From contig OZ024808.1 of NCBI GenBank assembly GCA_964017045.1, forward strand, positions 29,420,495 through 29,484,494: 64,000 nt of DNA, given 5' to 3'. Below are positions 27,297-57,358 of this stretch, piece by piece. The notes below the pieces were generated by a model that had not been told where the DNA came from, ran no database searches, and saw only the letters and a list, made by a program, of their open reading frames with translations. The position numbers and the translations under genes were made by a program. Each line of letters starts with the position of its first letter. The first letter of the stretch is position 1. This DNA is from Omphiscola glabra (Eukaryota > Mollusca > Gastropoda > Lymnaeidae).

Positions 27297-27352
27297 TCAC
27301 ACAGACACAATATTTGTCATTGGACTGCGGCAAGCTTTATCAAAAACCAATC
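27297..27352 (-). CDS. Gene B candidate terminal exon 13
   Basis: A good acceptor, TTTTATTTTCCAG, precedes 27352. After exon 12 (phase 0) it would encode D-W-F-L-I-K-L-A-A-V-Q and stop at 27317. Joined directly to exon 11 (phase 1) it would encode a longer end finishing N-I-V-S-V and stop at 27297. No polyadenylation signal was recognised just downstream. The choice cannot be made from sequence alone, and a different terminal exon is possible. Confidence 0.3.
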
Positions 27353-27759
27353 CTGGAAAATAAAATCATGGAAACATTGAATCCCGGATGTCTTGATGGT
27401 GTTAAATGACCACACGTTTCAGCCTCCACATTCAAATGTTTTTGAAGGATTTTTGTCCGGAGAGAAATAAGACTTTAAGAGGTCAAGGGATTATCCCAAA
27501 CGAAGTGGCTATTGGCACCCGGGTACCAGAATTGAGAGGTTGGGATTAGAAAACGATTTAAAAAAATTATTGTTGAGTTTGTAAGACCAAATGAGGTATC
27601 AAATGAAAGATAATTGAATGTACTATACGTTTGTAATCTTAATTCTTCATTTTAACTAAAATAAACTACTACAAATGACATCCAAATAGCATTAGTCAAA
27701 ATGGACCCTGACACGCAACGCCGCCATTCGCACCCGGGTACTATTAGACTTAATATGAC

Positions 27760-28115
27760 GAATAAGATGAAGGGATTATCCCAAATTAACAGTTGACTAA
27801 TATGACGAATCATTAAAAGGATTATCCCAAATTGACAGTTGATTAATATGACGAATCATTAAAAGGATTATCCCAAATTGACAATTGATTAATAGGACAG
27901 CGGACACCAGGGTAACCCATGGCAACGGAAACACGTCTAATTTTACTGAGCTGACATTGCCAAACACCTGCTACAGAGCTGACATTGCCAACCAACTGCT
28001 ACAAAGCTGACATTGCCAACCACCTGCTACAGAGCTGACATTGCCAACCACCTGCTACAGAGCTGACATTGCCAACCACCTGCTACAGAGCTGACATTGC
28101 TAACCACCTGCTTCT
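27760..28115. repeat. Two adjacent short minisatellites (46 bp and 28 bp)
   Basis: 27760-27895 has three units with AAAAGGATTATCCCAAATTG; 27957-28115 has six units of GAGCTGACATTGCCAACCAC plus CTGCTACA. Confidence 0.9.
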
Positions 28116-28796
28116 TTCAAAATATTCATTAATAAATTGATCGCAACTTAATATTTAGTGGGTCACAACAGTCTGAGCCGAACTGAACTCTTGAACACGT
28201 TCTTGCCATAAATGCAAACAAGTGTAATTTTTTCAGTGGTTCAAGGAATTCCCGTGAGCTTATCCAAGGTAGTCATTTCTGCAAATCAAAACATGGATTT
28301 GTATTTGAAGTGAGACAAAATTATGACTAAATACCAAGAAATTAAGAATTTGATTGAATGTAAAGCCATTTGTCGATGGTTGAGACTTTTGGTTTGAAAT
28401 TTATTTGAGAAATTGTCGTTTAGTTAATGTCCACGTTTTTATTACAAATATTGTAGCTCAATAAATAACTTTTAAGCTTGCTAGAATGAAGATAACATCG
28501 TGTAAGTTATCATCTTATAAAGATATCATCTGATCAAATATAACCTTAAAAAGATATCGTCTTACAAAGTTTTCATCTCATAAATTCATCATCTAATGAG
28601 TTATCATCCTGTAAGTTATCACCTTATTACTTCCACAGGAAGCTGTGGCTAAGAAATAACAGTTGTAAGTCTATGCTCCAAATGCTGGCGGGTTTAAAAA
28701 AAGGAAAATGCATCTATCATCTATAAATCTATCATTAGGGTCTAACAGAATTTACAACTCTCCGCATAAGATTCCTATTAAATTCGTTGACCGAAT
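28116..28796. other. Probable intron of gene B, no gene seen
   Basis: AT-rich DNA with weak TTATCATCTTATAA-like repeats at 28495-28630 and no supported exon. Confidence 0.4.
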
Positions 28797-28966
28797 CAGT
28801 CGTGTAGCGAGGGGGGGGGCAAGGGGGGACATCATTCCCAGGGCGCTACTCACAAAGGGGCGCCAATTGGTATATTTTACATATAATATTGTATGGTTTT
28901 CGAATAGGAGGGGGGCGCTAAAAAGGTATTGTGCCCCGGGCGCGAGTTAAGCTCGCTACGTCACTG
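28797..28966. mobile_element. hAT-type MITE, third copy
   Basis: CAGTCGTGTAGCGAGG to GCTCGCTACGTCACTG, flanked on both sides by the perfect 8-bp duplication GACCGAAT (28789-28796, 28967-28974). About 15 bases shorter than the other copies because one GGGGGCGCTAAAA unit is present once instead of twice. Confidence 0.92.
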
Positions 28967-29121
28967 GACCGAATGTGTCATAGTGTTTCGTTATTATACG
29001 ATAGTCCTAGTTGTCATGGGTTTGTTTGTAACGAGATTTTAGAAGTTACATGAAAACAAAAAACATCAAGGTAATAAGAAGATGAAACGAAGCAAATAAA
29101 ATTAATTTAATTCTAACTTAC

Positions 29122-29159
29122 TGCCGTTTCAGAATTCATTTCAGAGTCAGAGGTGAATT
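29122..29159 (-). CDS. Gene B candidate exon 12: acidic cytoplasmic segment
   Basis: 38 bases between a TTTATATAG acceptor and a strong ACGGCA/GTAAGT donor. In the phase left by exon 11 it reads E-F-T-S-D-S-E-M-N-S-E-T-A, acidic and serine-rich as tails often are. It ends in phase 0, unlike the other exons, so it is less certain. Confidence 0.45.
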
Positions 29160-29540
29160 CTATATAAAGAATAGATTCAATTATGTCATGTATCTATATA
29201 GAATAGATTCAATTATGCAATTGTCTATAAATAGAATTTGTTTAATTATTTCATGTCTATATATAGAATAGATTAAATTATGTCATGTCTATATATATAA
29301 TATATTTAATTATGTGATGCCTCTAAAGAATAGATTCAATCAAGTAATGTCTATTTAGAATAGATTCGATTATGTCATGTCTGTATATAGAATTGATTCA
29401 AAAATGTCATGTCTATTTAGAACAGATTCAATTATGTTATGTCTATATATAGAATTGATTAAATCCTGTCAATTTATATATAGAATAGATGCAGCTATGT
29501 CAGCTATATATTTATATATATATATATATATATTAAATTA
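29160..29540. repeat. Degenerate 30-bp repeat ending in a TA microsatellite
   Basis: About twelve diverged units with AGAATAGATTCAATTATGTC, ending in TATATA at 29500-29532. Confidence 0.85.
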
Positions 29541-29709
29541 TGTCATCTTATAGGTATTTAAATGTGGTTATACATTTTATAAGGAAATGATATTTTCACG
29601 TGGTTGTACATTTGATCACGTGATTGTTTCACCTGCACCATAGAACAGCCTCAGGAAAAACAGCAGTCGGAATTTGAGATGTTCAGAGCAGACGACATCC
29701 CTTCTTAGC

Positions 29710-30425
29710 ACTACCGGGTATCAGAAATTCTCTCTTAGAACAACCAGTTAACAGAAACTCTTTTCTTGGAACGACCATGTAACAGAAACTCTTTTCTTGG
29801 AACGACCAGGTAACAGAAACTCTTTTCTTGGAACGACCAGGTAACAGAAACTCTTTTCTTGGAACGACCAGGTAACAGAAACTCTTTTCTTGGAACGACC
29901 AGGTAACAGAAACTCTTTTCTTGGAACGACCAGGTAACAGAAACTCTTTTCTTGGAACGACCAGGTAACAGAAACTCTTTTCTTGGAACGACCAGGTAAC
30001 AGAAACTCTTTTCTTGGAACGACCAGGTAACAGAAACTCTTTTCTTGGAACGACCAGGTAACAGAAACTCTTTTCTTGGAACGACCAGGTAACAAAAACT
30101 CTTTTTTTGGAACGACCAGGTAACAGAAACTCTTTTCTTGGAACGACCAGGTAACAGAAACTCTTTTCTTGGAACGACGAGGTAAAAGAAACCCTGCATT
30201 AGAACTACCATGAAACGGAACCCTCTTCTTAGAACTACCAGGTAACATATAACCATTCTAAGAAGAACAAGGTAAAAGAAAAACCTTTCTTACAATTACC
30301 AGGTAACATTAACCTTTTCTTATAACAACCAGGTAACAGAAATCCTTTCTTAGTACAACTAGGTAACAGAAACCCTCTATTTTAAAAATAAGGTAACAGA
30401 AACCTTTTCTTAGAACAACCATCTT
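29710..30425. repeat. 31-bp minisatellite in a gene B intron
   Basis: About 22 units of AACGACCAGGTAACAGAAAC plus TCTTTTCTTGG; the central ones (29760-30180) are nearly identical, the right-hand ones diverged. Every unit holds CAGGTAACAG. Confidence 0.95.
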
Positions 30426-30449
30426 TCACTGGACTTAATGTTTGGTAAG

Positions 30450-32225
30450 ACTTAATAATGGTAACATCTCACGTTTAACAACCAAGTGTTACATAATGGT
30501 AACATCTCACGTTTAACAACCAAGCGTTACATAATGGTAAAATCTCACATTAAACAACCAAATGTTACATAATGGTAACATCTCACGTTTAACAACAAAG
30601 CGTTACATAATGGTAACATCTCAAGTTAAAAAACCAAGTGTTACATAACGGTAACATCTCACGTTTAACAACAAAGCGTTACATAATATTAACATCTCAC
30701 GTTTAACAACCAAGCGTTACATAATGGTAACATCTCACATTTAACAACCAAATGTTACATAATGGTAACATCTCACATTAAAAAACCAAGTTTTACATAA
30801 TGGTAACATCTCACGTTTAACAACCAAGCGTTACATAATATTAACATCTCACGTTTAACAACCAAGCGTTACATAATGATAACATCTCACATTAAAAAAC
30901 CAAGTGTTACATAATGATAACATCTCACATTAAAAAACCAAGTGTTACATAATGGTAACATCTCACATTAAAAAACCAAGTGTTACATAATGATAACATC
31001 TCACATTAAAAAACCAAGTGTTACATAATGATAACATCTCACATTAAAAAACCAAGTGTTACATAATGGTAACATCTCACGTTAAAAAACCAAGTGTTAC
31101 ATAATGGTAACATCTCACATTAAAAAACCAAGTGTTACATAATGGTAACATCTCACATTAAAAAACCAAGTGTTACATAATGATAACATCTCACATTAAA
31201 AAACCAAGTGTTACATAATGGTAACATCTCACATTAAAAAACCAAGTGTTACATAATGATAACATCTCACATTAAAAAACCAAGTGTTACATAATGATAA
31301 CATCTCACGTTAAAAAACCAAGTGTTACATAATGGTAACATCTCACGTTAAAAAACCAAGTGTTACATAATGGTAACATCTCACATTAAAAAACCAAGTG
31401 TTACATAATGGTAACATCTAACGTTTAACAACCAAGTTTTACATAATGGTAACATCTCACATTTAACAGCCAAGCGTTACATAATGGTAACATCTCACGT
31501 TTAACAGCCAAGCGTTACATAATGGTAACATCTCACATTAAACAACCAAGTGTTACATAATGGTAACATCTCACGTTTAACAACAAAGCGTTACATAATG
31601 GTAACATCTCACATTATACAACCAAATGTTACATAATGGTAACATCTCACATTAAAAAACCAAGTGTTACATAATGGTAACATCTCACGTTTAACAACCA
31701 AGTGTTACATAATGGTAACATCTCTCGTTTAACAACAAAGCGTTACATAATGGTAACATCTCACATTATACAACCAAGTGTTACATAATGGTAACATCTC
31801 ACGTTAAAAAACCAAGTGTTACATAATGGTAACATCTCACATTAAAAAACCAAGTGTTACATAATGGTAACATCTAACGTTTAACAACCAAGTTTTACAT
31901 AATGGTAACATCTCACATTTAACAGCCAAGTTTTACATAATGGTAACATCTCACATTTAACAGCCAAGCGTTACATAATGGTAACATCTCACGTTTAACA
32001 GCCAAGCGTTACATAATGGTAACATCTCACATTAAACAACCAAGTGTTACATAATGGTAACATCTCACGTTTAACAACAAAGCGTTACATAATGGTAACA
32101 TCTCACATTATACAACCAAATGTTACATAATGGTAACATCTCACATTAAAAAACCAAGTGTTACATAATGGTAACATCTCACGTTTAACAACCAAGCGTT
32201 ACATAATGGTAACATCTCACAGTAG
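30450..32225. repeat. 39-bp minisatellite in a gene B intron
   Basis: About 45 units with AAGTGTTACATAATGGTAAC and ATCTCACATTAAA, with two main variants (AAAAAACC and TTTAACAACC) in blocks, suggesting local higher-order amplification. Confidence 0.95.
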
Positions 32226-32620
32226 GCGAAACACTGGTGTCTTTGTCAATTCAAAAAAAAAGAAAGATTACTTGAGTCCTCCAATAAACCCATTTACCAT
32301 CCTCCACCTACACATTTCCCCCCTGTTGTTTTTAATGGTTTAAATTATTCAATGAAAGAAGCTAATATACACAAACATATACACACAAATATATACCAAA
32401 ATATACTCACAAATATAAACTAAAATATACACAATAAATATACACGCAAATATAAACATTTGGTGAAATCAATCAATTACAGAACCACACCCATATTCCC
32501 CGAATAGTCAGTCGATTTTCTGGTCATAGCGTAAAAAAAAAAGTGATACACATATTTACAAATTATTTCTAAAAATAATTATGATTATTAATACAAGATA
32601 TAAAATTGATTATGCAATTA
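32226..32620. other. Intron of gene B, no gene seen
   Basis: AT-rich, with short ACACAAATATA repeats at 32370-32460. Ends at the donor of exon 11. Confidence 0.5.
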
Positions 32621-32621
32621 C

Positions 32622-32654
32622 CTGATGAGTCATATTCATAGCCTGTGGCTTGGG
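32622..32654 (-). CDS. Gene B exon 11: cytoplasmic tail with paired tyrosines
   Basis: 33 bases, phase 1-1. Acceptor CCTTCTTTAAAAG, donor ATCAG/GTAATT. Encodes Q-A-T-G-Y-E-Y-D-S-S, acidic and with two tyrosines that could be phosphorylated; this is a suggestion from composition, not a recognised signalling motif. It sits between the 39-bp arrays at 30.4-32.2 and 32.9-34.8 kb, an island of non-repeat sequence. Confidence 0.65.
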
Positions 32655-32684
32655 CTTTTAAAGAAGGAACAAAAAGAACATATA

Positions 32685-32890
32685 ACGTTATGTTTAAACC
32701 ACATATTCCCTTGTGGGAGATGAAATGAAGGGCTGTGTTGTGTTTAAACCAAATATTCCCTTGTGGGAGGTGAAATGAAGGGCTGTGTAATGTTTAAACC
32801 AAATATTCCCTTTTGGGAGATGAAATGAAGGGCTGTTTAATGTTTAAACCAAATATTCCCTTGTGGGAGATGAAATGAAGGGCTGTTACA
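32685..32890. repeat. 50-bp tandem repeat, four units
   Basis: Units with ATATTCCCTTGTGGGAGATG and AAATGAAGGGCTGTGT. Confidence 0.92.
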
Positions 32891-32899
32891 ATTTTCAAA

Positions 32900-34830
32900 G
32901 CTATAGCATGCAGGACTCTATAATTTGTGATGACATGCATGCTTAAACATGCAGAACTCTATTTGTGATGACATGCATTCATAAAACATGCAGGACTCTA
33001 TTTGTGATGACATGCATTCATAAAACATGCATGACTCTACTTGTGATGACATGCTTTCATAAAACATGCATGACTCCATTTGTGATTACATGCATTCATA
33101 AAACATGCAGGACCTTTTTTGTGATGACATGCATTAATAATACATGCATGAGTCTATTTGTAATGACATGTATTCATAAAACATGCATGACTTTATTTGT
33201 GATGACATGTATTTATAAAACATGCATTACTCTATGTGTGATGACATGCATTTATAAAACATGCATTACTCTATGTGTGATGACATGCATTTATAAAACA
33301 TGCAGGACTCTATTTGTGATGACATGCATTCATAAAACATACACTACTTTATTTGTGATGACATGTATTTATAAAACATGCATTACTCTATGTGTGATGA
33401 CATGCATTCATAAAACATGCAGGACTCTATTTGTGATGACATGCATTTATAAAACATGCATTACTCTATTTGTGATGACATGTATTTATAAAACATGCAT
33501 TACTCTATGTGTGAAGACATGCATTCATAAAACATGCATTACTCTATGTGTGAAGACATGCATTCATAAAACATGCATTACTCTATTTGTGATGACATGT
33601 ATTTATAAAACATGCATTACTCTATGTGTGATGACATGCATTTATAAAACATGCAGGACTCTATTTGTGATGACATGCATTCATAAAACATACATTACTT
33701 TATTTGTGATGACATGTATTTATAAAACATGCATTACTCTATGTGTGATGACATGCATTCATAAAACATGCAGGACTCTATTTGTGATGACATGCATTTA
33801 TAAAACATGCATTACTCTATTTGTGATGACATGTATTTATAAAACATGCATTACTCTATGTGTGAAGACATGCATTCATAAAACATGCATTACTCTATGT
33901 GTGAAGACATGCATTCATAAAACATGCATTACTCTATTTGTGATGACATGTATTTATAAAACATGCATTACTCTATGTGTGATGACATGCATTCATAAAA
34001 CATGCATTACTCTATGTGTGATGACATGCATTCATAAAACATGCATTACTCTATGTGTGATGACATGCATTCATAAAACATGCATTACTCTATGTGTGAT
34101 GACATGCATTCATAAAACATGTATTACTGTATGTGTGATGACATGTATTCATAAAACATGCAGTACTCTATTTGTGATGACATGTATTTATAAAACATGC
34201 ATTACTCTATGTGTAATGACATGCATTTATAAAACATGCAGGACTCTATTTGTGATGACATGCATTCATAAAACATGCATTACTCTATGTGTGATGACAT
34301 GCATTCATAAAACATGCATGACTCTATTTGTGATGACATGTATTTATAAAACATGCAGGACTCTATTTGTGATGACATGTATTTATAAAACATGCATTAC
34401 TCTATGTGTAATTACATGCATTCATACAACATGCAATACTCTATTTGTGATGACATGCTTCATAAAACATGCATTACTCTATTTGTGATGACATGCATTC
34501 ATAAAACATGCATTACTCTATGTGTGATGACATGCATTTATAAAACATGCAGGACTCTATTTGTGATGACATGCATTCATAAAACATGCATGACTCTATG
34601 TAGGATGACATGCATTTATAAAACATGCAGGACTCTATTTGTGATGACATGCATTCATAAAACATGCATTACTCTATGTGTGATGACATGTATTCATAAA
34701 ACATGCATTACTCTATTTGTGATGACATGCATTCATAAAACATGCATTACTCTATGTGTGATGACGTGCATTTATAAAACATGCAGGACTCTATTTGTGA
34801 TGACATGCATTCATAAAACATGCATGTATA
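32900..34830. repeat. 39-bp minisatellite in intron 10 of gene B
   Basis: About 49 units of TGTGATGACATGCATTCATA and AAACATGCAGGACTCTAT. The unit is 13 codons long without a stop, so a 507-codon frame crosses it. A nine-unit (351-bp) block near 33320 is repeated near 33670. Confidence 0.95.
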
Positions 34831-34924
34831 ATATAGCTTTAATTATTTAATCTTTTAATGAATAAACTTGGCTGGAATTATTTCAGATTTTTACTTGTAT
34901 AAAAGATACTTACATAATTTGGCT

Positions 34925-35094
34925 TCAGCTGAAAAAAAAGATGATGTTCAAAGATGAAAGAAGATGTTCAAAGATGTTTAAAATGAAAGAAGATGTTCAA
35001 AGATTTAAAAAAAGATGCTCATAGATAAAAGAAGAAGTTCAAAGATGAAACAAGATTTTCAAAGATAAATAAGAGGTTTAGGGATGAAAGAAGA
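34925..35094. repeat. 21-bp AAAGATGTTCAAAGATGAA-type repeat
   Basis: About eight diverged units, directly left of Penelope fragment C. Confidence 0.8.
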
Positions 35095-35375
35095 TGTTTG
35101 GTTTTTTAACATTTAACTTCAAATCATTCTTCTTTACTTTGTTTCTGTATGGTTTTTGCGCCCACTCCTATTTTTTCTCTTTCTTAGGTATGATATTTGT
35201 ATATATATTGTAAAGTTAATTTATACTTATTTAAATATTTTGTTGTTGTACTGATAAAGGCATTTGCCGAAACGTTTACTTGTGTGTTATGTAAAAGTAT
35301 TATTAAAGCTGCTTATATATTGTTATATTGACACAAATTGTTGGTGCCTAGTTAATCTAATTTAAGCTTTATATC
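35095..35375 (+). mobile_element. Penelope-like fragment C (terminal repeat only)
   Basis: Matches the untranslated end and terminal repeat of the other Penelope copies, including the AACTTCAAATCATTCTTCTT region and the GACACAAATTGTTGGTG hairpin. No coding part. The hammerhead core reads CTGATAA at 35251-35257, losing the essential G, so it is inactive. Confidence 0.78.
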
Positions 35376-35605
35376 TTGCCCTCCCAACAGAGCAATAGTA
35401 AATCTCTCCCTCCAAACAGAGCAGTTGTATCTCTTGCACTCCCATCAGATCACTGTTATTTCTCTCTTTTCAAACAAAGCACTGGTATATCTCGCCCTCC
35501 CAAAAGAGCACTGTTACTTATTGCCCTCACAAAAGAGCACTGTTACTTCTTGCCCTCCCAAAAGAGCACTGTTACTTCTTGCCCTCCCAAAAGAACACTG
35601 ATATA
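35376..35605. repeat. 29-bp minisatellite
   Basis: About eight units with GCCCTCCCAAAAGAGCACTG and TTACTTCTT, beginning at the Penelope C end. Confidence 0.9.
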
Positions 35606-35904
35606 GTTTTTGCCCTTAATTTATATTTAACAGCAATGCGAGAAAATTAGATGTGGAATCAAATTCCAATGGAATTTCTGTTAATAAAACATTAATTTTA
35701 CAATAAATTCAACCTATAGTGAATAATTTGAATTTAACTCAATAGAATCTTTTTAGCTAACCCTTGGATCCGATGTTTGGATAGCTTTGGAATTAAAGCA
35801 ACATAAATATTATCATTTTTTTAAAATTTGGTTTCATTAAAATTATAATTTGAAATGTGAAGTAATTGAACTTTCAAACAAGGATATTCCAAAAAAGAAC
35901 TTAC

Positions 35905-35940
35905 AGCGGCTTGGCATTTCAGACTGATCGACACGACCTC
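35905..35940 (-). CDS. Gene B exon 10: start of cytoplasmic tail
   Basis: 36 bases, phase 1-1. Acceptor after a pyrimidine-rich tract ending CATGTAG, donor CCGCT/GTAAGT. Encodes G-R-V-D-Q-S-E-M-P-S-R, giving a basic residue pair right after the membrane helix (R from the junction, then G-R). Separated from exon 9 by about 3.7 kb that is mostly the 40-bp minisatellite. Confidence 0.72.
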
Positions 35941-36044
35941 CTACATGACGTGGACGAAGACGAAAAAGATGAGTAACATTTAAACTTATTATATCTTAAA
36001 TTAGGTTATTAACAATTACTTCTCCTGTGGTATGTGCAAGTTGA

Positions 36045-36180
36045 TAAAATGGGACTATTGGGTACTCGAAAGTTAATGAAATGAGACTATTATTTACTAG
36101 AAAGCTGATAAAATGGGACTAATGGGTACAAGAAAGTTGATGAAATAAAACTATTGGATACTAGAAAGTTGATAATTGAT
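36045..36180. repeat. 35-bp tandem repeat, four units
   Basis: Units with AGAAAGTTGATGAAATGGGA and a CTATTGGGTACT segment, between exon 10 and the 40-bp array. Confidence 0.85.
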
Positions 36181-36199
36181 GTTGGGCGTACTGCTGACT

Positions 36200-38360: not shown

Positions 38361-38394
38361 TAGAGGTTTCTATAAATATTTTTAGCGCTTGTGT

Positions 38395-39260: not shown

Positions 39261-39679
39261 CAGCTTATCAGTGCTCCAGTGATCAAACAGACAGATATCT
39301 TATCTTAATATATTTTACCTTTCTTCCAAAAACACTTTTTATTTAGGCCTGAAAAGAAGTATAGGATTAAATAATACATTTTTGAAATATATGAACACAA
39401 ATTATTATTTTTATTTATATAAACATTTTTCTTTAAAGATGTGTGTCAAAACTAATTTTGTCTAATTAAATAATTATAGTCAAGAAAAGCTGCCATGAAA
39501 CCTTTAATCTCAAAAACAGAATGTTAAACGATGTTTGATGTTAAACATAATTTTAATCAAGATAAGATGTCATGAAATATTTAATCCCAAAGCCAGCTTG
39601 TTAAACGATGTTAAAATAATTTTAAGTAACGTAACAAACATAGTGTTTAATTATACTAACTGACACACGTTGAACTTAC
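39261..39679. other. Intron 9 of gene B next to the transmembrane exon, no gene seen
   Basis: AT-rich DNA with a diverged pair of about 100-bp repeats at 39470-39610 (TCAAGAAAAGCTGCCATGAA and TCAAGATAAGATGTCATGAA). Confidence 0.5.
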
Positions 39680-39766
39680 GTAAATAGCAAGCAATGGATC
39701 CAATGATGAGAAGCAATGCAATCGTCATGATAAGAGGGATCACATAGGATGGGAGCTCTTCACTGT
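39680..39766 (-). CDS. Gene B exon 9: transmembrane helix
   Basis: 87 bases, phase 1-1, acceptor AATTTTTAG, donor TTTAC/GTAAGT. Encodes S-E-E-L-P-S-Y followed by an uninterrupted hydrophobic run VIPLIMTIALLLIIGSIACY of about 20 residues, then L and an arginine completed by exon 10 as a stop-transfer residue. With the signal peptide in exon 1 this gives a type I single-pass topology. Confidence 0.85.
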
Positions 39767-40192: not shown

Positions 40193-40225
40193 CTTCATCA
40201 CAATAGTAACAAGGAGTTGTTATCT
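40193..40225 (-). CDS. Gene B exon 8: second stalk exon with C-x-x-C-D motif
   Basis: 33 bases, phase 1-1. Acceptor ATATTATAG, donor GAAG/GTATGT. Encodes I-T-T-P-C-Y-Y-C-D-E, similar to exon 7. Joining to exon 7 gives a glutamate and to exon 9 an aspartate, making an acidic segment before the membrane. Directly beyond its donor lies a 20-bp tandem array whose units each repeat the donor-like GTATGTATTT. Confidence 0.72.
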
Positions 40226-40666: not shown

Positions 40667-40708
40667 CTTTGTCACAATCGAAACATGTAGTATTTGGCTG
40701 CACAGTTA
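40667..40708 (-). CDS. Gene B exon 7: stalk exon with C-x-x-C-D motif
   Basis: 42 bases, phase 1-1. Acceptor AATTTTTACAG is strong; donor ACAAAG/GTCTGT is weak. Encodes T-V-Q-P-N-T-T-C-F-D-C-D-K with one sequon N-T-T. It resembles exon 8 (C-aromatic-x-C-D then an acidic or basic residue), which supports both as paralogous juxtamembrane exons. Confidence 0.7.
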
Positions 40709-42408: not shown

Positions 42409-42952
42409 TAAAATCTTCAATTTAATTCTGACTGCTACGATATATTTGTACCTGTCTTTTGTCATTTTAGTACTATAATATTTCAACATAGAAGTGTAGC
42501 TTTTTCTTCCTGTAATTTATGTATATTGTTTATTATAATTTGATTAAGTTTATTTTAGCTCTCATTCCATTTTTTTTAAAATCAATGTTAAACATTTTGT
42601 AATGCTACGCATTTTAATAATGACGTCGTCAAATTAGCTCAAAATCATATCCGTAATTTTGTAATCACTTCATTTAGTCTTTTACCCACTTTTTTATCCA
42701 AGTATTGTTCAGATCTAGCTTTTAATTTTTTTAAGAAAAACAAGTTACACCATTTATGTAAACTTTTTAAATAATTGCATTCGTAAACGTCTTATATCAA
42801 AATGTTTTAACACTAGTTTTCACCCTGCTGGTTGTGCTTTAATTCGTTTGATAAATCTAAACTTTTGACCATTGAAAATAAATGTGCTGTTAGTCGCAGG
42901 AGGATGGTCTTAAACTCCCACAAGCGCTTAATAAACTTAATATCTCAACTCT

Positions 42953-44216
42953 GTGATAGGATTCGCACGCTGGAAGAATATGTCAGAAAAAAAAACACAA
43001 CATAATAACTTATTATTCGATCTCATTCGTTTAATTATTCATGGACTTGATAGGGAGCTCTATATTGTGTTATCTGATGGAAAGAAGAAACAAATTGAAA
43101 ATCTTAAATCTGCCAAGAATCCTATGGATACCACAACTCCCGTAAAAGAAAATAAACCAAACGTAGTAGTTTGTTTACCGCCAGATCTTTTACTATCTAA
43201 ACAAGACAAATCTGTATTAAGTAAAGGACAAAAATTTATCCCACTTCGATCATCGAGTGATAAATATCAATTGAAGTCAGACGCACATGGTTTCTTTCGC
43301 TCATTGAGACTGCAACTTTACTTTCGCGAGGCTCCCACTCCCATTAACCAGGATTAGGATTCATTTCCTGTAAAACGACAACGCAAATCTACACGGACAC
43401 CTCCACCCGATCAATCTAAAGCACTTGACCTTTATATTAAAAGTACAGACAATCAAATAAAAAATAATTCGCCAAACTCCGCTTCATAAATCAATACTAT
43501 CAAAACAAGAATGGCAAGCACTTTCTCAAATTTAAAAAAAAATGCCAGGATATCATTATTTAACCGGCAGACAAGGGTGGAGCTTTTGTTGTTTGGGATA
43601 AGAAGCTATACATTGAAGAGGCTTCCAAACAATTACAAGACACAACCTTTTACACACCGAGGTCCAACGACCCCATTGTCCAGAACAACGTAATTGTCAA
43701 GGACTCCATCGAAGACTTTATTCAAGTTGGCCAATTACCAGCGTCTGCCACAAACTTACGAATTTATGATAGTTATCTTGGTAAACAATGCTTGTATTTG
43801 TTACCAAAAATTCACAAGGAAGTCCTGGAAGACCAATTGTCTCAGCTTGTTCTTGTCCTACTGAACAAATTTCAGAATTTTTGGTTACAGTTTTTCAGCC
43901 CATGGTTTAAAATATTCCATCGTATATTAAGGAAACTAACCACGTGATCAAATTTCACGAGTCCTTGGTTTTACCTAATGGAACCCATTCATTTTTCACA
44001 ATAGACGTTTCTTCACTGTACACCTCAATTCCCGACACTGATGGACTCACCGCTATTTCGTTTTTTCTGAATAAAAATCCTAATCCTAAGTTCCCAACAA
44101 GTGCCCGACGCAGGTCATATCCTGAGCAAATTTTAAAAGCAGCTGTCACTCGAATTAAAGGCATGAGTAGACAAGATTATTTTAAAGCTACTCATTCTGA
44201 GTCTAGTTATAGGTAA
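42953..44216 (+). pseudogene. Penelope reverse transcriptase remnant, copy E
   Basis: 42953-43357 is open for 134 codons and includes L-S-K-G-Q-K-F-I-P, D-K-Y-Q-L-K, F-F-R-S-L-R-L-Q-L-Y-F, the typical region before Penelope RT. 43944-44216 has F-F-T-I-D-V-S-S-L-Y-T-S-I-P. The intervening part is frameshifted, and the catalytic palm is deleted between S-Y-R (44213) and K-P-P (44322). Confidence 0.82.
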
Positions 44217-44451
44217 AAATTTATTTGAACTTTTCATCCCCATGACCTTAAAGCTTGTTTTCTGGTTCTGAAAAACCACTCAATTCTTAAGGCAGTCCTG
44301 TCACCAGTGAGGATTTCAGAAAACCTCCTCTTTTCGCTATCCGGGGGGACAAGGGCCTTAGGGACATGCTAGTTAGAAGCCACCTCCCTGCTATTAAAGC
44401 CCATAAAGGTACCAAAAGTTGTAATTGCCAATGTAAAACACATGTCCCTAC

Positions 44452-44742
44452 GTGATTCAAGTTGATAAGATCACTTTCCCTCTGGAAATATTCCGAATAA
44501 AGGATGGCTTTACTTGCACAAGTCGCAACGTGATTTACACCATCCATTGTAAAAAGTGCGGGAAATTATACGTAGGAAAAACAGGTCGTCGCCTTGGAGA
44601 CCGGTTTAGAGAAAACCTCTGTACCATAAAAACAGGCTCTCTGTCCAATCATTTCAACAGCACTAACAATGATGGCATTTTAGACATCACAGTTACTGGT
44701 ATACTGTATACTAGTAACACAACGGATAGGATCTATATGTAG
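44452..44742 (+). pseudogene. GIY-YIG endonuclease domain, Penelope copy E, open
   Basis: Open frame of 96 codons: F-P-L-E-I-F-R-I-K-D-G-F-T-C, N-V-I-Y-T-I-H-C-K-K-C-G-K-L-Y-V-G-K-T-G, R-R-L-G-D-R-F-R-E-N-L, H-F-N-S. The Y-T-I/Y-V-G core and the R-L-x-x-R-F-R-E helix with its catalytic arginine are present, so the domain could fold. A TGA at 44455 separates it from the upstream linker, and it has no start signal of its own. Confidence 0.8.
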
Positions 44743-45260: not shown

Positions 45261-45539
45261 CGCTAAATAAACATTTGTAGACTCTAGATGTCCTGCATAA
45301 GTCGATGAAATGGAAGATGTACGACACGGTACTGACCGCGTCCACTATCAGATCGACCTGGATGCATTGTTGCGTTGTGTTGGTCCAGATGTTGTTCTTC
45401 ATGACTTGTAGCACCGCCTCCTTCAGCTCATCACGGCAGAAATTTATGAAATGTTTCTTGCCGACGGTCAGCTTCATTTCACAGACAGGTGTGGACAGAA
45501 GATTCTTACCATCGACAGATAAGCTGACTGGATTTTCAA
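45261..45539 (-). CDS. Gene B exon 5: third Ig-like module
   Basis: 279 bases, phase 1-1. Acceptor after a T-rich tract ending CAATAG; donor AGCG/GTAAGA. Encodes about 93 residues with S-V-D-G-K-N-L, V-C-E-M-K-L, I-N-F-C-R-D, T-Q-Q-C-I, L-C-R-T and V-Y-K-C, matching exon 4 in cysteine order. Contains one sequon N-T-T. Gene A differs by S/P and one silent leucine change. A Penelope-like element begins only about 150 bases beyond the donor, inside intron 5. Confidence 0.83.
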
Positions 45540-45554
45540 CTATTGATGTTTAAA

Positions 45555-48905: not shown

Positions 48906-48911
48906 GTGACT

Positions 48912-49345
48912 CATCATCATCATCATGTCCCTTAGTCATTGGACAGATGGGGCGCCACAGATGACATGAAAACTATCCTTCTCCATTCCTCTCGGTCTTC
49001 TGCACTTCGCACAGCATCGCCCAGTTTTAATCCCGTCCACTCCTTGATGTTATCTTCCCATCTTTTTCTCTGTCTTCCTCTTCTTCTCCCTCCTCTAGTA
49101 GTGCCCTGAATGATTTCTTTGGCGAGCCCTTGTTTTCTTGTTACGTGGCCAAACTATTCAATTTTGCGCTTTTTTACCAACACCAGGAGGTCAATTGCTT
49201 TACGAATCCTTTCTTTCACTTGTTCATTGGTGATGTGGTCTCTATAGCATATGCCAAGAATGCCTCTAAAACATCTCCATCGCCTTTATTTTCCTTTCGA
49301 GTTCTGCTGTTAATGTCCAGGACTCACAGGCATACAAGAAAATGA
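48912..49345 (-). pseudogene. Non-LTR reverse transcriptase C-terminal tail, copy 2
   Basis: Nearly identical to 6310-6745, with the same stop and frameshift, so it was already dead before the segmental duplication. Ends in the TGATGATGATGA run. Confidence 0.82.
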
Positions 49346-49439
49346 CTAGTGACTAGGCCTGCATTAATTTCGTGCAAGTGTCCCCTTTGCAAATGACTTA
49401 GCTTGCATTATTTCGCGAACAAGTAGCACTCAATTATGG

Positions 49440-50040
49440 AGTAATTATTTTATATTCGTTATATTTTTTGTTGATTAATAAGTAGAGTCCATTTTTTTAA
49501 TGTGATCAAGAGTTCCATGTTTTTAATGTGATCAAGAGTGCCACAAGATCCACTCCCCGTGAAACAAAACACTTGTATCATAACAGAGATGATATTAGAA
49601 CCATTGTTGAGGTTTATATCATACAATTGTGTACATCTTAAATACAAATAATTGTAATTTTAAAAAAAAATTCCCTTATGCACCAATAATAGAAATTCGT
49701 CATTATAAAGTTTCCAATTGTATTCAGTAAAGGAAGCTGAAGTTATATCAACTGTGGATATCAAAAAATAAAAAAATCGGCAAATTAAAATGATTCATCA
49801 AACAAGCAACTTATTTTGTTTATTATTTTTAATCTTCCAGCATCGCTCATCAACAATCATAGAAATTACTATGCAAAAAGCTAGTTTAAAGATAGCGCCT
49901 ACGATTGAACAGTTCCATATGTCCCTATGGGAAATTATTTTCTTTAATAAATAAATAAATCTATAAGCAAGCGAGATTTAATCAGTAATGAATACATTGA
50001 ACATCACATTTAATAGCAAAGAACTTGTTACGTAGTTAAC
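49440..50040. other. Intron 4 end of gene B, no gene seen
   Basis: Counterpart of 6840-7440, ending at the exon 4 donor. Confidence 0.5.
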
Positions 50041-50053
50041 TATGAACACTTAC

Positions 50054-50344
50054 AGTACAGATCACACTTGTAACTCTTGTGTATGTCACACTCGTCATGA
50101 TGCTCGCTGTAGTTCAGATGCACTTGCAAGTGTTTGTTTTCCGGCACGATTGCTGATCTTGTGATGCACATCGAATTTTCAGTGTGCGGAAGTTCCAGTA
50201 TACCGAGGGTCATTGAAACAAAGGGATTGACCAGCCCCATAGCACAAAATGTCAATGTCCTCGTTCCAAGATTTGGAAATTTTTTTGTGCAGTTGTTCAA
50301 TGAAAGTTTTTCACCATCTATTGAAAAGTTTGCCCATTTTATGG
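50054..50344 (-). CDS. Gene B exon 4: second Ig-like module
   Basis: 291 bases, phase 1-1, acceptor after a T-rich tract ending TTTACAG, donor GTAAGTG. Encodes about 97 residues in the order S-I-D-G, N-N-C-T, T-L-T-F-C-A, S-M-C-I, E-C-D-I-H and Y-K-C. The Y-x-C near the end recalls the F strand of Ig folds; that is inference. The cysteine order and S-[IV]-D-G start are shared with exon 5, so the two modules are related repeats. Two sequons, N-C-T and N-Y-S. Gene A differs by R/K, A/G and one silent change. Confidence 0.85.
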
Positions 50345-50929
50345 CTGTAAAAAAATATTTTTTTTAAACGCTTGAAAATAAAATAATGTAGATTAGATAC
50401 AAAATATTTGATTTATTGGGTTAAAATATTTACAAACACTTAGTTTATTAGTTTCAAATTGATGTTAAATTACACAAATTTTGTTTAATGGGCTCAAATT
50501 GGAGTTTATTTACAAACATTTCGCTTATTGGGGTCAAAATGGTGTTAAGTTACTTGAAAACAAGATCAAGCGAGAGATTCAATGTAGAAAGAAGTCACAA
50601 GACAAGGGTTCCCAAACTTGTACGTATTCGACTTGTATGACAGAGCTTTGCCATCAAAATAAGTGTTCCAATAAGTACCGCAAACTTTACAAAATGTAAC
50701 AATGAAATACAAACGTGTAAAAATAAAAAGAAGATATTCTTTTCTTATTACTATAAAGTTACAAAGAAAAATGTGAAACAAAAGAATAACTTGTATCTCA
50801 TTACCATAAATAAAAATTTTCTTGCGATATAAAACAAAAACACTTTAATTGTGTGTAGACCAGGGGTTCTCATTTCCAGGTTTTTGCTTATCCTCGGAAA
50901 ACGGGACAAAAGTCACACTCATCCCGAGA

Positions 50930-51290
50930 CCCCTGGGTGAGAGTGGCTATCCCGGGTTCCCTGGGTGAGAAGGGCTATCCTGAGACCCCTGGGTGAGAGT
51001 GGCTAACCCGGGTTCCCCTGGTGAGAGTGGCTATCCCGGGTTACCTGGATGAAAGTGGCTATCCTGGGTTCCCTTGGTGAGAGTGGCTATCCTGAAATCC
51101 CTCGGTGAGAGAGGTTATCCCGGGTTCCCTGGGTGAGAGTGGCTATCCTGAGTTCCCTTGGTGAGAGTGGCTATCTCGGGTTCCCTGGCTGAGAGTGTCT
51201 ATCCCGGGTTCCCTCGGTGAGAGTGGTTATCCCGGGATCCCTGGGTGAGAGTGGCTATCCCTGGATCCCTGGGACAGGGTGGCTATACCG
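50930..51290. repeat. 28-bp GC-rich minisatellite in intron 3 of gene B
   Basis: About 13 units of GGGTGAGAGTGGCTATCCCG type. Confidence 0.92.
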
Positions 51291-51444
51291 TACAAAATCG
51301 GGGTGAAATTATTTCAATTTAAAATATTCATAAAAACTCAACAAATCTGTACAAAAGTTATTGTATTTGTATAATTGTAAATTGTTTTAGTCTATGAATA
51401 GATGCTACAAGATGTTTAGTTAAGTTGAAAAGTTAGTCACTTGT

Positions 51445-51955
51445 TAATAGCGGCTATATTGTTCTCCTGCCTAGCCCTATATAACTTGCTATTAGTGGCT
51501 ATATTGTTCTCCTGCCTAGCCCTATATAACTTGCTATTAGTGGCTATATTGTTCTCCTGCCTAGCCCTATATAACTTGCTATTAGTGGCTATATTGTTCT
51601 CCTGCCTAGCCCTATATAACTTGCTATTAGTGGCTATATTGTTCTCCTGCCTAGCCCTATATAACTTGCTAATAGTGGCTATATTGTTCTCCTTCCTTAA
51701 CTAGTCAAAGATAACTGGCTAATAGTGGCTATATTGTTCTCCTGCCTAGCCCTATAGGAATTACTATTAGTGGCTATATTGTTATCATGCCTAGCCCTAT
51801 AGAACTTTCTAATAGCGGCTATATTGTGCTCCTGCCTAGCCCTATATAACTTGCTATTAGTGGCTATATTGTTCTCCTGCCTACAACTATAGAGCTTGCT
51901 AATAGTGGCTATATTGTTCTCATTCCCTACCTAGTCATAGATAACTTGCTAATAA
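51445..51955. repeat. 45-58-bp minisatellite in intron 3 of gene B
   Basis: Five consecutive near-identical 45-bp units at 51450-51675 show recent expansion compared with copy 1; an 87-codon open frame across them is a by-product. Confidence 0.92.
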
Positions 51956-51985
51956 TTCGCTTGTTTAGCAAAAGACGGATATGAG

Positions 51986-52400
51986 TTGTTTACTATGTCC
52001 ATTTCTTTACTATGTCAAATATGTTTACTATGTCCATTTCTTTACTATGTCAAATATGTTTACTATGTCCATTTCTTTACTATGTCAAATATGTTTACTA
52101 TGTCCATTTCTTTACTATCTCCATTTCTTCACTCAGTCCACTGTTTACGATGCTCATTATTTTATTATTTCCATTTATTTCCTATGTCCATTTTTTTACA
52201 ATTTACGATGTATATTTCTTTGTTTGGTGCTAATTTGGATGGCGCCTTCTTAACCACATTCGTAACCACGCTCTTAAACACCTTCTTAAACCGCCTTCGT
52301 AACCATCTTGTTAAAAACCTTCTTAATCACATTCGTAACTACGCTCTTAACCACCTTCTTAACAGCGGTCTAACGCACCTTCCTAACCACCTTCTTAACT
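51986..52400. repeat. 35-bp repeat plus CCTTCTTAAC-type repeat, copy 2
   Basis: Counterpart of 9296-9705 with very few differences. Confidence 0.8.
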
Positions 52401-52429
52401 AAAATGGATGAATCACCCATTCTGTGATT

Positions 52430-52614
52430 CAGTGGCGTAGTGAGGGGGGGGCAAGGGGGCATCATGCCCCGGGTGCTACTCACAAAGGGGCGCCAAATGG
52501 TATATTTTACTACAATATTGTACGGTTTTCGAATAGGAGGGGGCGCTAAAAAGGTATTGGGGGCGCTAAAAAGGTATTGTGCCCCGGGCGCGAGTTAAGC
52601 TCGCTACGCCACTG
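52430..52614. mobile_element. hAT-type MITE, copy 2
   Basis: Orthologue of 9740-9926 with a perfect 8-bp target duplication CTGTGATT (52422-52429 and 52615-52622), confirming the boundaries. Confidence 0.92.
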
Positions 52615-52879
52615 CTGTGATTGCAATTAAATTTGCTCAGAATATATGTAGCATAACGAAACGGCCTCACAGATGCAACCAGGTCTGTAAATAAACCAAA
52701 GTTTTCTTAAGGAGACGTACGACTGTTATCAAGGCCGTAACACAACCATTATTATACATGTCAAATATAATTAAATAGTGCGTAAAAATTATCACAATGA
52801 TAAAAAAACCAGTTTAATCGAGTTTTAACATTAATACTTTTAAAAATGCATAGCTTTAAAGCAATACCTTAAAACAATT

Positions 52880-54445
52880 CATAAAACTCAACTTTCAGAT
52901 ATATATCATCTTTCATAAAACATTAACTTTCATAAAACATTAACTTTCATAAAACTCAACTATCATAAATCTCAAATTTCATAAAATTAAATTATCACAA
53001 AACTGAACTTTCATAAAGGTCAACTTTCATAAGACTCAACTTTTATAAAACTCAACTTTTTTAAAACTCAACTTTTATAAAACTCAACTTTTATAAAACT
53101 CAACTTTTATAAAACTCAACTTTTATAAAACTCAACTTGCAAACAAATCAACTTTCATAAAACTTAACTTGCAATTACCTCAAATTTTATAAAACTCAAT
53201 TTTCATACCACTCAACTTTCATACAATTAACTTTCATACAATTCAAATTTCATAAAAGTCGACTTGCAAACAACTCAACTTTCATAAAAACTTAACTTGC
53301 AAACAGCTCAACTTTCATAAGACTCAATTTTCATTCAATTCAACTTTCATAAAAATTAACTTTCATAAAACTCAACTTTCATAAAACTCATCTTTCATAC
53401 AACTCAACTTTCATAAAACTCAACTTTCATACAACTTAACTTTCATAAAATTCATCTTTCATACAACTCAACTTTCATAAAACTCAGCTTTCATAAAACT
53501 CAACTTTCATACAACTTAACTTTCATAAAACTCAACTTTCATACAACTCAACTTTCATAAAATTCAACTTTCATACAACTTAACTTTCATAACACTCAAC
53601 TTTCATAAAATTCAACTTTCATACAACTTAACTTTCATAAAACTCAACTTTCATAAAACTCAAATTTCATAAAACTCAACTTTCATAAAACTCAACTTTC
53701 ATAAAACTCATCTTTCATACAACTCAACTTTCATAAAATTCAACTTTCATACAACTTAACTTTCATAAAACTCAACTTTCATAAAATTCAACTTTCATAA
53801 CACTCAACTTTCATAAAATTCAACTTTCATACAACTTAACTTTCATAAAACTCAACTTTCATAAAACTCAAATTTCATAAAACTCAACTTTCATAAAACT
53901 CAACTTTCATAAAACTCATCTTTCATACAACTCAACTTTCATAAAATTCTACTTTCATACAACTTAACTTTCATAAAACTCAACTTTCATAAAATTCAAC
54001 TTTCATAACACTCAACTTTCATAAAACTCAACTTTCATACAACTTAACTTTCATAAAACTCAACTTTCATAAAACTCAAATTTCATAAAACTCAACTTTC
54101 ATAAAACTCAACTTTCATAAAACTCATCTTTCATACAACTCAACTTTCATATAATTCTACTTTCATACAACTTAACTTTCATAAAACTCAACTTTCATAA
54201 AATTCAACTTTCATAACACTCAACTTTCATAAAACTCAACTTTCATACAACTTAACTTTCATAAAACTCAACTTTCATAAAACTCAAATTTCATAAAACT
54301 CAACTTTCATAAAACTCAACTTTCATAAAACTCATCTTTCATACAACTCAACTTTCATATAATTCAACTTTTATACAACTCAACTTTCATAAAATTCAAC
54401 TTTCATACAACTTAACTTTCATAAAACTCAACTTTCATAAAACTC
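52880..54445. repeat. 16-bp minisatellite in intron 3 of gene B
   Basis: About 95 units, nearly twice copy 1. A block of roughly 220-240 bp (with AACACTCAACTTTCATAAAA and AAACTCAAATTTCATAAAAC markers) recurs from 53580 to 54330, so expansion went by multi-unit blocks. Confidence 0.95.
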
Positions 54446-54465
54446 TTTTATTTTGGTTCACTTAC

Positions 54466-54688
54466 AATATATTGGAGGTATTTTTATTTCTTTGGAATAG
54501 ACATAGATGTATTCCGTGCGGCTAGTATAAGCGTAGGATAGCTCGGCACGCCAAATGGTTTCACTGTAAACTGTATTGGCAAAGTCATTATGGTGATAGC
54601 ACCTACGATTGTCTACGTCCATATAGCAGAAGCAGATGTATGGTTGATCTATGACACAATAGTGACCTAAGCACACTTTGCAACCGTA
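54466..54688 (-). CDS. Gene B exon 3: second half of N-terminal Ig-like module
   Basis: 223 bases, phase 0 in and phase 1 out, so it can only join to a phase 0 exon such as exon 2. Acceptor follows a pyrimidine tract ending GTTGCAG; donor is ATATT/GTAAGT. It encodes 74 residues starting Y-G-C-K-V-C-L-G-H-Y-C and is rich in cysteine and tyrosine, ending K-I-P-P-I-Y. Compared with gene A all five residue differences arise from eight base changes, none silent. The end of the 16-bp minisatellite array lies about 20 bases beyond the donor. Confidence 0.83.
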
Positions 54689-54834
54689 CTGCAACGTAGA
54701 AAAAAAGATAGATGATGAGTTCGCATAAAATATTTCACCTTTTTAAAAAATCTATTTGATATCTGAAAATTACTTTTTAAACAGGCAAAATAATGCTAAA
54801 CGATATGGCAATAAATAGTATATTTTTGCAACTA

Positions 54835-56105
54835 CTAGTGCATTTGGCAATTAGAAGTACATTAGGCAACTACTAGTGCATTTAGCAATCAGAAGTACAT
54901 TAGGCAACTACTAGTGCATTCAGGAATTAGAAGTACATAAGGCAACTACTAGTGCATTTAGCAATCAGAAGTACATTAGGCAACTACTAGTGCATTTGGC
55001 AATTAGAAGTACATTAGGCAACTACTAGTGCATTTAGCAATCAGAAGTACATTATGCAACTACTAGTGCATTTGGCAATTAGAAGTACATTAGGCAACTA
55101 CTAGTGCATTTGGCAATTAGAAGTACATTAGGCAACTACTAGTGCATTCAGGAATTAGAAGTACATTAGGCAACTACAAGTGCATTTGGCAATTAGAAGT
55201 ACATTAGGAAACTACTAGTGCATTCAGGAATTAGAAGTACATTAGGCAACTACTAGTGCATTTGGCAATTAGAAGTACATTAGGCAACTACTAGTTCATT
55301 TAGCAATCAGAAGTACATTAGGCAACTACTAGTGTATTTAGCAATCAGAAGTACATTAGGCAACTACTAGTGCATTTAGCAATTAGAAGTACATTAGGCA
55401 ACTACTAGTGCATTTAGGAATTAGAAGTACATTAGGCAACTACTAGTGCATTTAGCAATTAGAAGTACATTAGGCAACTACTAGTGCATTTAGCAATTAG
55501 AAGTACATTAGTCAACTACTAGTGCATTTGGCAATTAGAAGTAACATTAGGCAACTACTAGTGCATTTAGCAATTAGAAGTAACATTAGGCAACTACTAG
55601 TGCATTTAGCAATTAGAAGTAACATTAGGCAACTACTAGTGCATTTAGCAATTAGAAGTACATTAGGCAACTACTAGTGCATTTGGCAATTAGAAGTAAC
55701 ATTAGGCAACTACTAGTGCATTTAGCAATTAGAAGTACATTAGGCAACTACTAGTGCATTTAGCAATTAGAAGTACATTAGGCAACTACTAGTGCATTTA
55801 GCAATTAGAAGTACATTAGGCAACTACTAGTGCATTTGGCAATTAGAAGTAACATTAGGCAACTACTAGTGCATTTGGCAATTAGAAGTACATTAGGCAA
55901 CTACTAGTGCATTTGGCAATTAGAAGTAACATTAGGCAACTACTAGTGCATTTGGAAATTAGAAGTACATTAGGCAACTACTAGTGCATTTAGCAATCAG
56001 AAGTACATTAGGCAACTAATAGTGCATTTAGCAATCAGAAGTACATTAAGCAACTACTAGTGCATTTAGCAATCAGAAGTACATTAGGCAACAATTAGTG
56101 CATTG
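54835..56105. repeat. 37-38-bp minisatellite in intron 2 of gene B
   Basis: About 34 units of GCAACTACTAGTGCATTTAG type. Confidence 0.95.
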
Positions 56106-56476
56106 AGTATTAATAAGTACATTTGGTAAATACAAATACATTTGTCACCTACAACTAGATTTAGCAACTACTATCTCTGAAAAGAATGATCTATTGAGTT
56201 TTAATCTGCAATAAATATTTAAGAAAATTATTTTTAAACTTTAAAGATTCTTTGCGTCACCTATTCGAAAATATAACAGCATCGATAGCCGCCATTTTAC
56301 AAATTGGGAGAGCAAAGGAATATATTATATGTTACATTTTCTGTTTTGTTATTAACACAATGCAATCAGTGAAGGTGCTGGTACCACCACTAGCTCTAAG
56401 AAATAGTAACACAATGCAATTATTGAAAGAGCTGGTATATATATACTTTTTTTTAAAACGCATGTCAAATTCTTAC

Positions 56477-56676
56477 AACTGGTTGCCACCATTCGACTTG
56501 GTCTGTGGTGTTCTTTTGGAATATCTCCAAACAAAAGTGCCAAGGGAAGCGCGACCACGGCGGGTAATGTACGCAGGCATTTACAGCGAGTTTGTCATGT
56601 GATTGCAGAAGTCCTGTCTTACATACTGATGGCTTTGCCAAATACGTGAACTCGATCCTAGGATCGCCATGGCCTC
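56477..56676 (-). CDS. Gene B exon 2: first half of N-terminal Ig-like module
   Basis: 200 bases, phase 1 in and phase 0 out. Begins G-H-G-D-P-R-I-E-F and ends E-W-W-Q-P-V at a GTAAGA donor. Contains cysteines in S-V-C, N-A-C and H-F-C and one sequon N-T-T. The acceptor reads CCAG-GAG-GCC, so two acceptors three bases apart (NAGNAG) are possible; position 56673 is the alternative start. Joining to exon 1 restores a glycine codon. It carries H-Y-P-P-W where gene A has H-H-S-W, a one-codon length difference. Confidence 0.82.
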
Positions 56677-56774
56677 CTGGAGAAAGAAATGAAACAATGC
56701 TACAAAAACACAGCACACGGGTGAACAAAATACAATTAACTGCATCAAGGGAAGGACAGAGACAATCAATCATA

Positions 56775-57240
56775 ATAGCTTTACAACGTTAACAGGAAAT
56801 AGCTGTTCAACGTTAACAGGACATAGCTGTTCAACGTTAACAGAGAATAGATGTACGACGTGAACAAGGTATTGCTGTAAGACGTTTACAGGGAATAAGT
56901 GTATACGTTAACAGGAAAAAGCTTTGCGGACATATCAGGGAATAGCTGCAAATGATCAACAAAATCAGAATTATTTACTCCTTTAAACCATGAATGCCAA
57001 CAAAATCCGTGTTAAGAAACTTAACGGTTGACACAGGACGAGATGGTTACACGAGGGCTTCATACCAGTACAGTAGGTCTTCATACCAGTACAGTAGGTC
57101 TTCATACCAGTACGGTAGGTCTTCATACTAGTACCGAAGAGCAAGAGAGAGAGAGAGAGGTGGAGCTAAAGAGAGAGAGAGATGGGAGAGCCAAAGCTAG
57201 AGAGACAGTGAAAGAGATTGAGAGAGAATGAAAGAGAAAA
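56775..57240. repeat. Intron 1 repeats of gene B
   Basis: ACGTTAACAGGAAATAGCTG units (56780-56940), four TTCATACCAGTACAGTAGGT-type units (57059-57135) and a GA-rich tract to about 57240, close to the exon 1 donor. Confidence 0.82.
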
Positions 57241-57274
57241 CGGCCAATATAGAGAGACAATACAGAGAAACTAC

Positions 57275-57358
57275 CTGGTAAATTGAACAAGGAGAACCAT
57301 ATCATGCCCAGAGAGTACATCCATCTTGTGTCATCTACCATCCTTACACTATTTCAAC
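57275..57358 (-). CDS. Gene B exon 1: start codon and signal peptide
   Basis: The ATG is at 57341 (reading down) with an in-frame TGA 12 bases upstream in the exon. It encodes 22 residues plus one base, beginning MVDDTRWM with a hydrophobic stretch MYSLGMIWFSLFNLPG, typical of a secretory signal. A pyrimidine-rich acceptor ending in CCAG precedes 57358, and a donor CCAG/GTAGTT follows 57275, leaving phase 1. The acceptor implies a non-coding first exon further right, not located. The paralogous exon at 17618-17701 differs by one proline/serine change. Confidence 0.82.

Follow-up and report, generated by a model that had tools for sequence, protein, structure and literature searches.

A tandem multigene family of putative type I membrane receptors in the lymnaeid snail Omphiscola glabra

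Compatibility between Biomphalaria snails and flukes maps to clusters of membrane-protein genes, and clusters encoding single-pass membrane proteins have been associated with resistance to schistosomes (PMC7494358, PMC4361660). PTC2 of Biomphalaria glabrata is described as a cluster of single-pass transmembrane genes of 166-530 codons, their helix set apart from the N-terminus, with no known domain and divergent paralogues (eLife 2020, PMC7494358), and the grctm genes of GRC/PTC1 as a cluster encoding single-pass proteins with a large, beta-strand-rich N-terminal extracellular part (PLoS Genet 2015, PMC4361660). The gastropod VIgLs (FREP, CREP) are presented as snail immune multigene families, secreted and combining immunoglobulin (Ig)-type domains with a C-terminal fibrinogen or C-type lectin domain (PMC10875847), and Alr of Hydractinia is reviewed as a large, clustered recognition family with unusual Ig-like domains of V-set/I-set Ig (PMC11999971). 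Here we describe a receptor-like gene, and the family to which it belongs, in a 64,000-nucleotide (nt) window of the Omphiscola glabra genome (assembly GCA_964017045.1, contig OZ024808.1; C16:29420495-29484494, chromosome 15), plain positions below being those of the window. To our knowledge, from a literature search that was not exhaustive, nothing comparable is known in lymnaeids, which are liver-fluke hosts.

The first-pass annotation of this DNA was right in taking its source to be a mollusc. The mitochondrial contig (13,783 bases, 28.2% GC) has a gene order, read from open frames, tRNAs and a match to COX1, the only gene matched to a family, that we take to be that of a heterobranch gastropod. 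O. glabra is listed among the hosts of Fasciola hepatica, with infection in 53 of 103 in a single experimental study according to a table row of the source (PMC11913016), and the Ensembl annotation of its assembly is given as comprising 18,317 protein-coding genes (PMC12553978).

The gene in the window and its paralogues

It had been proposed that minus-strand exons between 27297 and 57358 chain into a gene for a type I transmembrane receptor, dispersed in minisatellite DNA. As judged from the sequence, the chain is a real, intact gene: exons e1 to e9 join in a stop-free frame, all borders are AG/GT and the phases are compatible, with phase 1 at the end of e1, phase 0 between e2 and e3, and phase 1 at all other junctions. 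This model, termed copy 2, comprises 11 exons and a coding sequence of 1323 nt (440 codons) when e10a is counted as the last exon. Tandem repeats occupy 57% of its introns and 0% of its exons, and two more paralogues on the same chromosome, g3 and g5, share its exons as far as these were fetched.

All exons lie on the minus strand. The first, e1 (57275..57341), supplies an ATG and a start resembling a signal peptide (MVDDTRWMYSLGMIWFSLFNLPG), has phase 1 at its end and is matched in g3 at 77% with the same donor; an AG 17 nt before the ATG suggests an intron in the 5' untranslated region, with the exon starting at 57358. An outer region with nine cysteines is divided between e2 (56477..56676, phase 1 to 0) and e3 (54466..54688, phase 0 to 1), the latter 55% identical in g3 over 74 amino acids (aa) with the same borders. 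The phase 1-1 exons e4 (50054..50344) and e5 (45261..45539) encode homologous five-cysteine beta-modules, D2 and D3, followed by two C-x-x-C-D stalk exons, e6 (40667..40708; TTCFDCDK) and e7 (40193..40225; PCYYCDE), the putative transmembrane helix of e8 (39680..39766) and the juxtamembrane tail LNKKCFWKK of e9 (39319..39348). Both the signal peptide and the membrane helix were called by eye, from the hydrophobicity of the start and of a single exon, and are putative.

Whilst the proposed chain held from e1 to e9, its 3' end did not. The suggested final exon at 27297 (e10b, 27297..27352) was rejected, as it meets an early stop in copy 1 and has no in-frame alignment in g3. A tail exon, e9b (32622..32654; AQATGYEYDSS), was added from an exon scan; it has a strong acceptor and donor and is kept in all four paralogues examined. 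The candidate last exon, the best of those tried, is e10a (28241..28278), which reads EMTTLDKLTGIP and then a stop, is identical in copy 1 including its flanks, and in g3 keeps its acceptor with a frame that by eye reads ETTVVG and then a stop. The modelled tail spans 33 residues.

A second copy, copy 1, occupies the left part of the window at an offset of approximately 42.6 kb, with intact e1 (17618..17684), e2 (16882..17078), e3 (11098..11320), e4 (7450..7740) and e5 (2646..2924) on the minus strand and e6, e7, e8, e9, e9b and e10a just left of the window (L039/L040). Unmasked noncoding DNA of the two copies diverges by 2.7% (190/7052 sites), as compared with 0.9% in e4 and e5 (5/570, p = 0.005) and 3.5% in e1-e3 (17/487, p = 0.31). 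The sole exon indel between them is an in-frame difference of 3 nt in e2, whilst among 35 noncoding indels 27 have a length that is not divisible by three.

The paralogue g3 (C16, ~29.344-29.394 Mb) carries every exon from e1 to e9b, and g5 carries e4-e9b together with an e2 match at 29.331 Mb, e1 and e3 not having been fetched. Exon lengths from e4 to e9b are equal in all four genes (291, 279, 42, 33, 87, 30 and 33 nt), with phase-1 AG/GT borders, as compared by script for 27 of the 28 exons and by eye for copy 1 e9. The 264 codons contain zero stops and zero indels, and the ratio of nonsynonymous to synonymous substitution rates (dN/dS) is 0.43-0.72 in all six pairs, or 0.27 to 1.21 when e4, e5 and e6-e9b are taken separately. 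On these alignments, D2-D3, the stalk, the helix and the tail taken together are under purifying selection. The tail motif Y-[ED]-Y-D-[ST]-S is present in the four genes. The stalk cysteines are conserved; g5 has lost the second one of e6.

Amino-acid change, as estimated from the aligned sequences, is faster in the outer region, a pattern that recognition receptors could be expected to show. Between copy 2 and g3, nonsynonymous differences affect 84 of 333 sites there as opposed to 84 of 624 in the rest (p = 1e-5), an approximately twofold rate, and the other two pairs agree (p = 0.003 and 4e-5). The dN/dS of e3 alone is 1.14-1.15 in comparisons with g3; for the window copies against each other it is 3.6, a value that depends on 0.5 synonymous changes. 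All nine outer-region cysteines are invariant in the three sequences.

The window was also scanned for open candidate exons of 240-330 nt, phase 1/1 and a summed splice score of at least 2 (also at least 6), with 40 second-order Markov sequences as controls. At the lower threshold the minus strand gave six candidates, namely e4 and e5 of both copies plus a shorter-acceptor variant of e5, and the plus strand two (one retroelement frame with two donors), as compared with a control mean of 0.15 per strand and a maximum of 2. At the higher threshold two candidates were left on the minus strand, both of them e4, and none in the controls. The summed score of e5 is just 2.8. Its acceptor stands within the top 31% of AGs; for the e6 acceptor among AGs, and likewise for the e2 donor among GTs, the corresponding figure is 8%. 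Short phase-1 exons set in introns that are more than half minisatellite are recoverable through comparison of paralogues.

The wider family and the identity of its modules

The genome search covered 744,774,263 bases in 37 contigs; match counts are lower bounds, and a group of matches is gene-like rather than a proven gene. Places matching the e5 module numbered at least 34 at an expectation value (E) of 1e-3 or below, and those matching e4 at least 27 at this threshold and at least 31 at E<=10, all of them open and stop-free. Six tandem genes, the window's two among them, lie on one strand of C16 at 29.24-29.48 Mb, each with e2, e4 and e5 matches, and the e2 query retrieved one further place, on C12. 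Additional family places are found on C18, C12, C14 and C7. For 23 of 30 e4-type places (the 31st, at E 9, being omitted) an e5-type place follows 1.9-7.9 kb downstream on the same strand. A C18 module used as query matched at least 31 places, four of them new, and the three queries combined gave at least 65 places at E<=1e-3, falling into 40 gene-like groups on five contigs, of which 25 contain at least two places. Adding weaker places gives 42 groups on six contigs, C15 contributing two e4-type places (E 0.034 and 1.2) in which the cysteine pattern is kept.

In a distant gene on C18 the e5-type exon is followed, as seen by eye, by a C-x-x-C-D stalk exon (DITLTTRCRHCDK). This stalk exon (L044, C18:15347805-15347834) has a GC donor (AAAG|GCAAGT), again by eye, and a scan of the gene that required GT donors returned neither a helix nor a stalk exon. 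Modules on other chromosomes, L007 and L037 (C12) and L036 and L038 (C15), are 20-25% identical to e4 with the same five cysteines; L037 is one place matched by both the e4 and e5 queries, and L036 and L038 have no e5-type partner among the listed matches. From their sequences, these four are possibly older branches with other architectures.

Three Ig-like modules had been proposed in the first-pass annotation, two of them sharing the residue order S-[IV]-D-G, C, F-C, C-I, C, Y-K-C. This order was verified in e4 and e5, and the cysteine order recurs across the genome: in 27 modules four cysteines are invariant and the fifth nearly so. Module borders were set at the best-scoring in-frame AG and GT, so that the bordering of 38 of 38 is partly by construction; lengths are 86-108 aa, those of L006, L007 and L017 being probably too long. 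Profile comparison gave no recognisable kinship of the outer region of e2 and e3 to D2/D3 (hhalign probability 0.1%, with an outer alignment of three rows), leaving two homologous modules and a separate outer region where three modules had been counted.

The Ig-like nature of these modules is weakly supported, by predicted folds that are beta-sandwiches of Ig-type resemblance and moderate confidence. Absence of a family from structure-match lists carries no meaning. Membership of the Ig superfamily by sequence was rejected: no Ig model of Pfam-A matched any of 27 modules at E<=5 (27 of the 38, with 11 close copies omitted), and a 27-row A3 profile found nothing among the PDB sequences at E<=10. 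The invariant C33 and C93 have a spacing suitable for Ig, with their placement on strands conjectural, and the 27 modules have no conserved tryptophan column, so that the Ig pattern Cys(B)...Trp(C)...Cys(F) is not seen. The tryptophan is missing from some genuine Ig domains as well.

Other searches likewise returned no relatives. The whole protein matched no Pfam family at E<=10, and single exons against Pfam and the protein against PDB by sequence gave nothing credible, the best hits (E 0.061 to 0.3) being unrelated families. In a database of 5.8 billion proteins, none of 949 candidates reached E<=1 and, for residues 160-400, none of 369 reached E<=10, which is weak evidence given that gastropod coverage is uncertain; a control retroelement open reading frame matched one sea-cucumber protein there, so some animals are covered. 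With no Pfam match, the family would probably go unnamed in an annotation built on domains.

Possible function and rival explanations

On balance, we favour the reading that this intact gene encodes a type I membrane receptor with a single pass, belongs to a tandem multigene family and most likely serves in recognition. The family would most likely represent lineage-specific recognition receptors. A signal peptide would direct the receptor to the cell surface, where the outer region may touch a variable ligand (a parasite, a microbe or a self marker), with D2-D3 acting as disulphide-braced spacers and the two stalk exons perhaps cross-linking receptor chains. The short tail, with its conserved Y-[ED]-Y-D motif, may signal weakly or dock an SH2-type partner. 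The recognising tissue would most likely be blood cells or epithelium, drawing on a variety stored as many gene copies.

Several observations weigh against a recognition receptor of this kind. No relative of known function emerged from the Pfam, PDB-sequence and protein-database searches, no familiar signalling motif was seen on inspection of the tail, which ends at a candidate last exon, and no helix exon was found in 16 kb of the C18 gene, this exon being shown in four genes only. Exons e1-e5 of the two window copies together diverge by 2.1% (22/1057), which is not different from noncoding DNA (p = 0.30), and the dN/dS of e4 alone is 0.92 and 1.21 in two pairs. In the outer region the synonymous rate between copy 2 and g3 is also higher, at 24/81 sites (0.30 per site) versus 34/167 (0.20), though not significantly (p = 0.11; p = 0.23 and 0.10 in the other two pairs), and dN/dS, at 0.80-0.86 versus 0.44-0.72 in the remainder over these three pairs, does not exceed 1. 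Owing to this ratio below 1 and the raised synonymous rate, positive selection is not proven, and relaxed constraint or a generally faster region would fit the outer region as well as diversifying selection does.

A receptor family of the same build might serve not defence but adhesion between cells, the wiring of neurons or the recognition of gametes, its copy number reflecting an ordinary lineage-specific expansion. We regard this as unlikely, though the strongest competitor: fold matches at the observed Z are not informative on function, and forty gene-like groups, many of them in tandem clusters, would be unusual for a wiring receptor.

It is also rather unlikely that the outer region changes fast merely through weak constraint or faster-changing DNA, with no drive from a ligand, and that family size reflects neutral tandem duplication in repeat-rich DNA. 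The outer-region rates just given are compatible with this reading, and the array does sit in duplicated, minisatellite-rich DNA; the invariance of the nine outer cysteines and the absence of any frame break in e4-e9b of four paralogues argue otherwise.

That the assembler set two haplotypes of a single gene end to end, and so produced the window copies, is very improbable. The copies are near-identical and in tandem, as such an artefact would be, but the genome is reported to have a heterozygosity of 0.45% and its assembly to have been treated with purge_dups (PMC12553978), so that a noncoding divergence of 2.7% favours a true duplication. The remaining four cluster genes are far more diverged, and g3 and g5 also underpin the gene model. 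A chain of open frames formed by chance, or a pseudogene in decay, would suit the lack of database matches for single exons and the whole product, but has a negligible probability and is already refuted, as far as sequence allows, by the exon lengths, borders and frames conserved in four paralogues and by the scan controls.

Approximately 5 kb of the window (18484-23422) is present only in copy 1, the copies realigning at 23423, and contains direct repeats of 229 nt at positions 19048 and 22927, which are 97% alike, and a gag-like frame on the plus strand (20599-21420) whose only match is a sea-cucumber CCHC protein (26%); from its sequence, this insert is probably a long terminal repeat retroelement. 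Retroelement fragments lie on the plus strand at 365-2125, 15888-16316 and 42941-44742, two sets being inside the duplicated gene region. One of five retroelement frames weakly matches a GIY-YIG nuclease (E 0.0045, below the Pfam cut-off), a domain that we take to be a feature of Penelope-like elements. The 513-codon open frame at 32947-34488 (plus strand) was rejected as a gene, being mere read-through of a 39-nt minisatellite that yields a 13-residue repeat.

Comparison with known recognition systems

Approximately forty gene-like loci, four of them shown by sequence as type I receptors, with a five-cysteine beta-module that has no Pfam model and a fast-changing outer domain, may tentatively be viewed as a previously undescribed recognition repertoire, based on gene copies, in a snail that hosts liver flukes, a possibility that we regard with some doubt. 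The family is now mapped, with the exact positions of its exons, to named chromosomes of a publicly available genome, and is testable at once with existing RNA reads.

Like the VIgLs, as these are described, the O. glabra genes form a snail multigene family; unlike FREP and CREP, the encoded protein includes the putative membrane helix of e8 and matches no Pfam domain, which sets it outside the VIgL group (FREP/CREP/GREP). The likeness to Alr, which is cnidarian and compared by description only, is to a large, clustered family with unusual Ig-like domains. Alr presumably has a similar exon plan, with one exon per domain, short spacer exons, a helix exon and tail exons.

The grctm proteins of GRC/PTC1, going by their published description, share with this family a single-pass build, a large, beta-rich N-terminal extracellular part and clustering of the genes; set beside them as differences are the O. 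glabra tail of 33 residues and the lack of any matching Pfam model. Resemblance to PTC2 as reported extends to a freshwater pulmonate snail host and to clustered single-pass genes with the helix off the N-terminus and with divergent paralogues, and the build of PTC/TM1 is found here in a 440-codon model with a helix exon called by eye, six tandem genes and no Pfam family. PTC2 is defined in its source by haplotype polymorphism and association with schistosome infection, the present comparison being of build, from one genome. The nearest functional comparison would be with the Biomphalaria resistance clusters, which the O. glabra family resembles in build.

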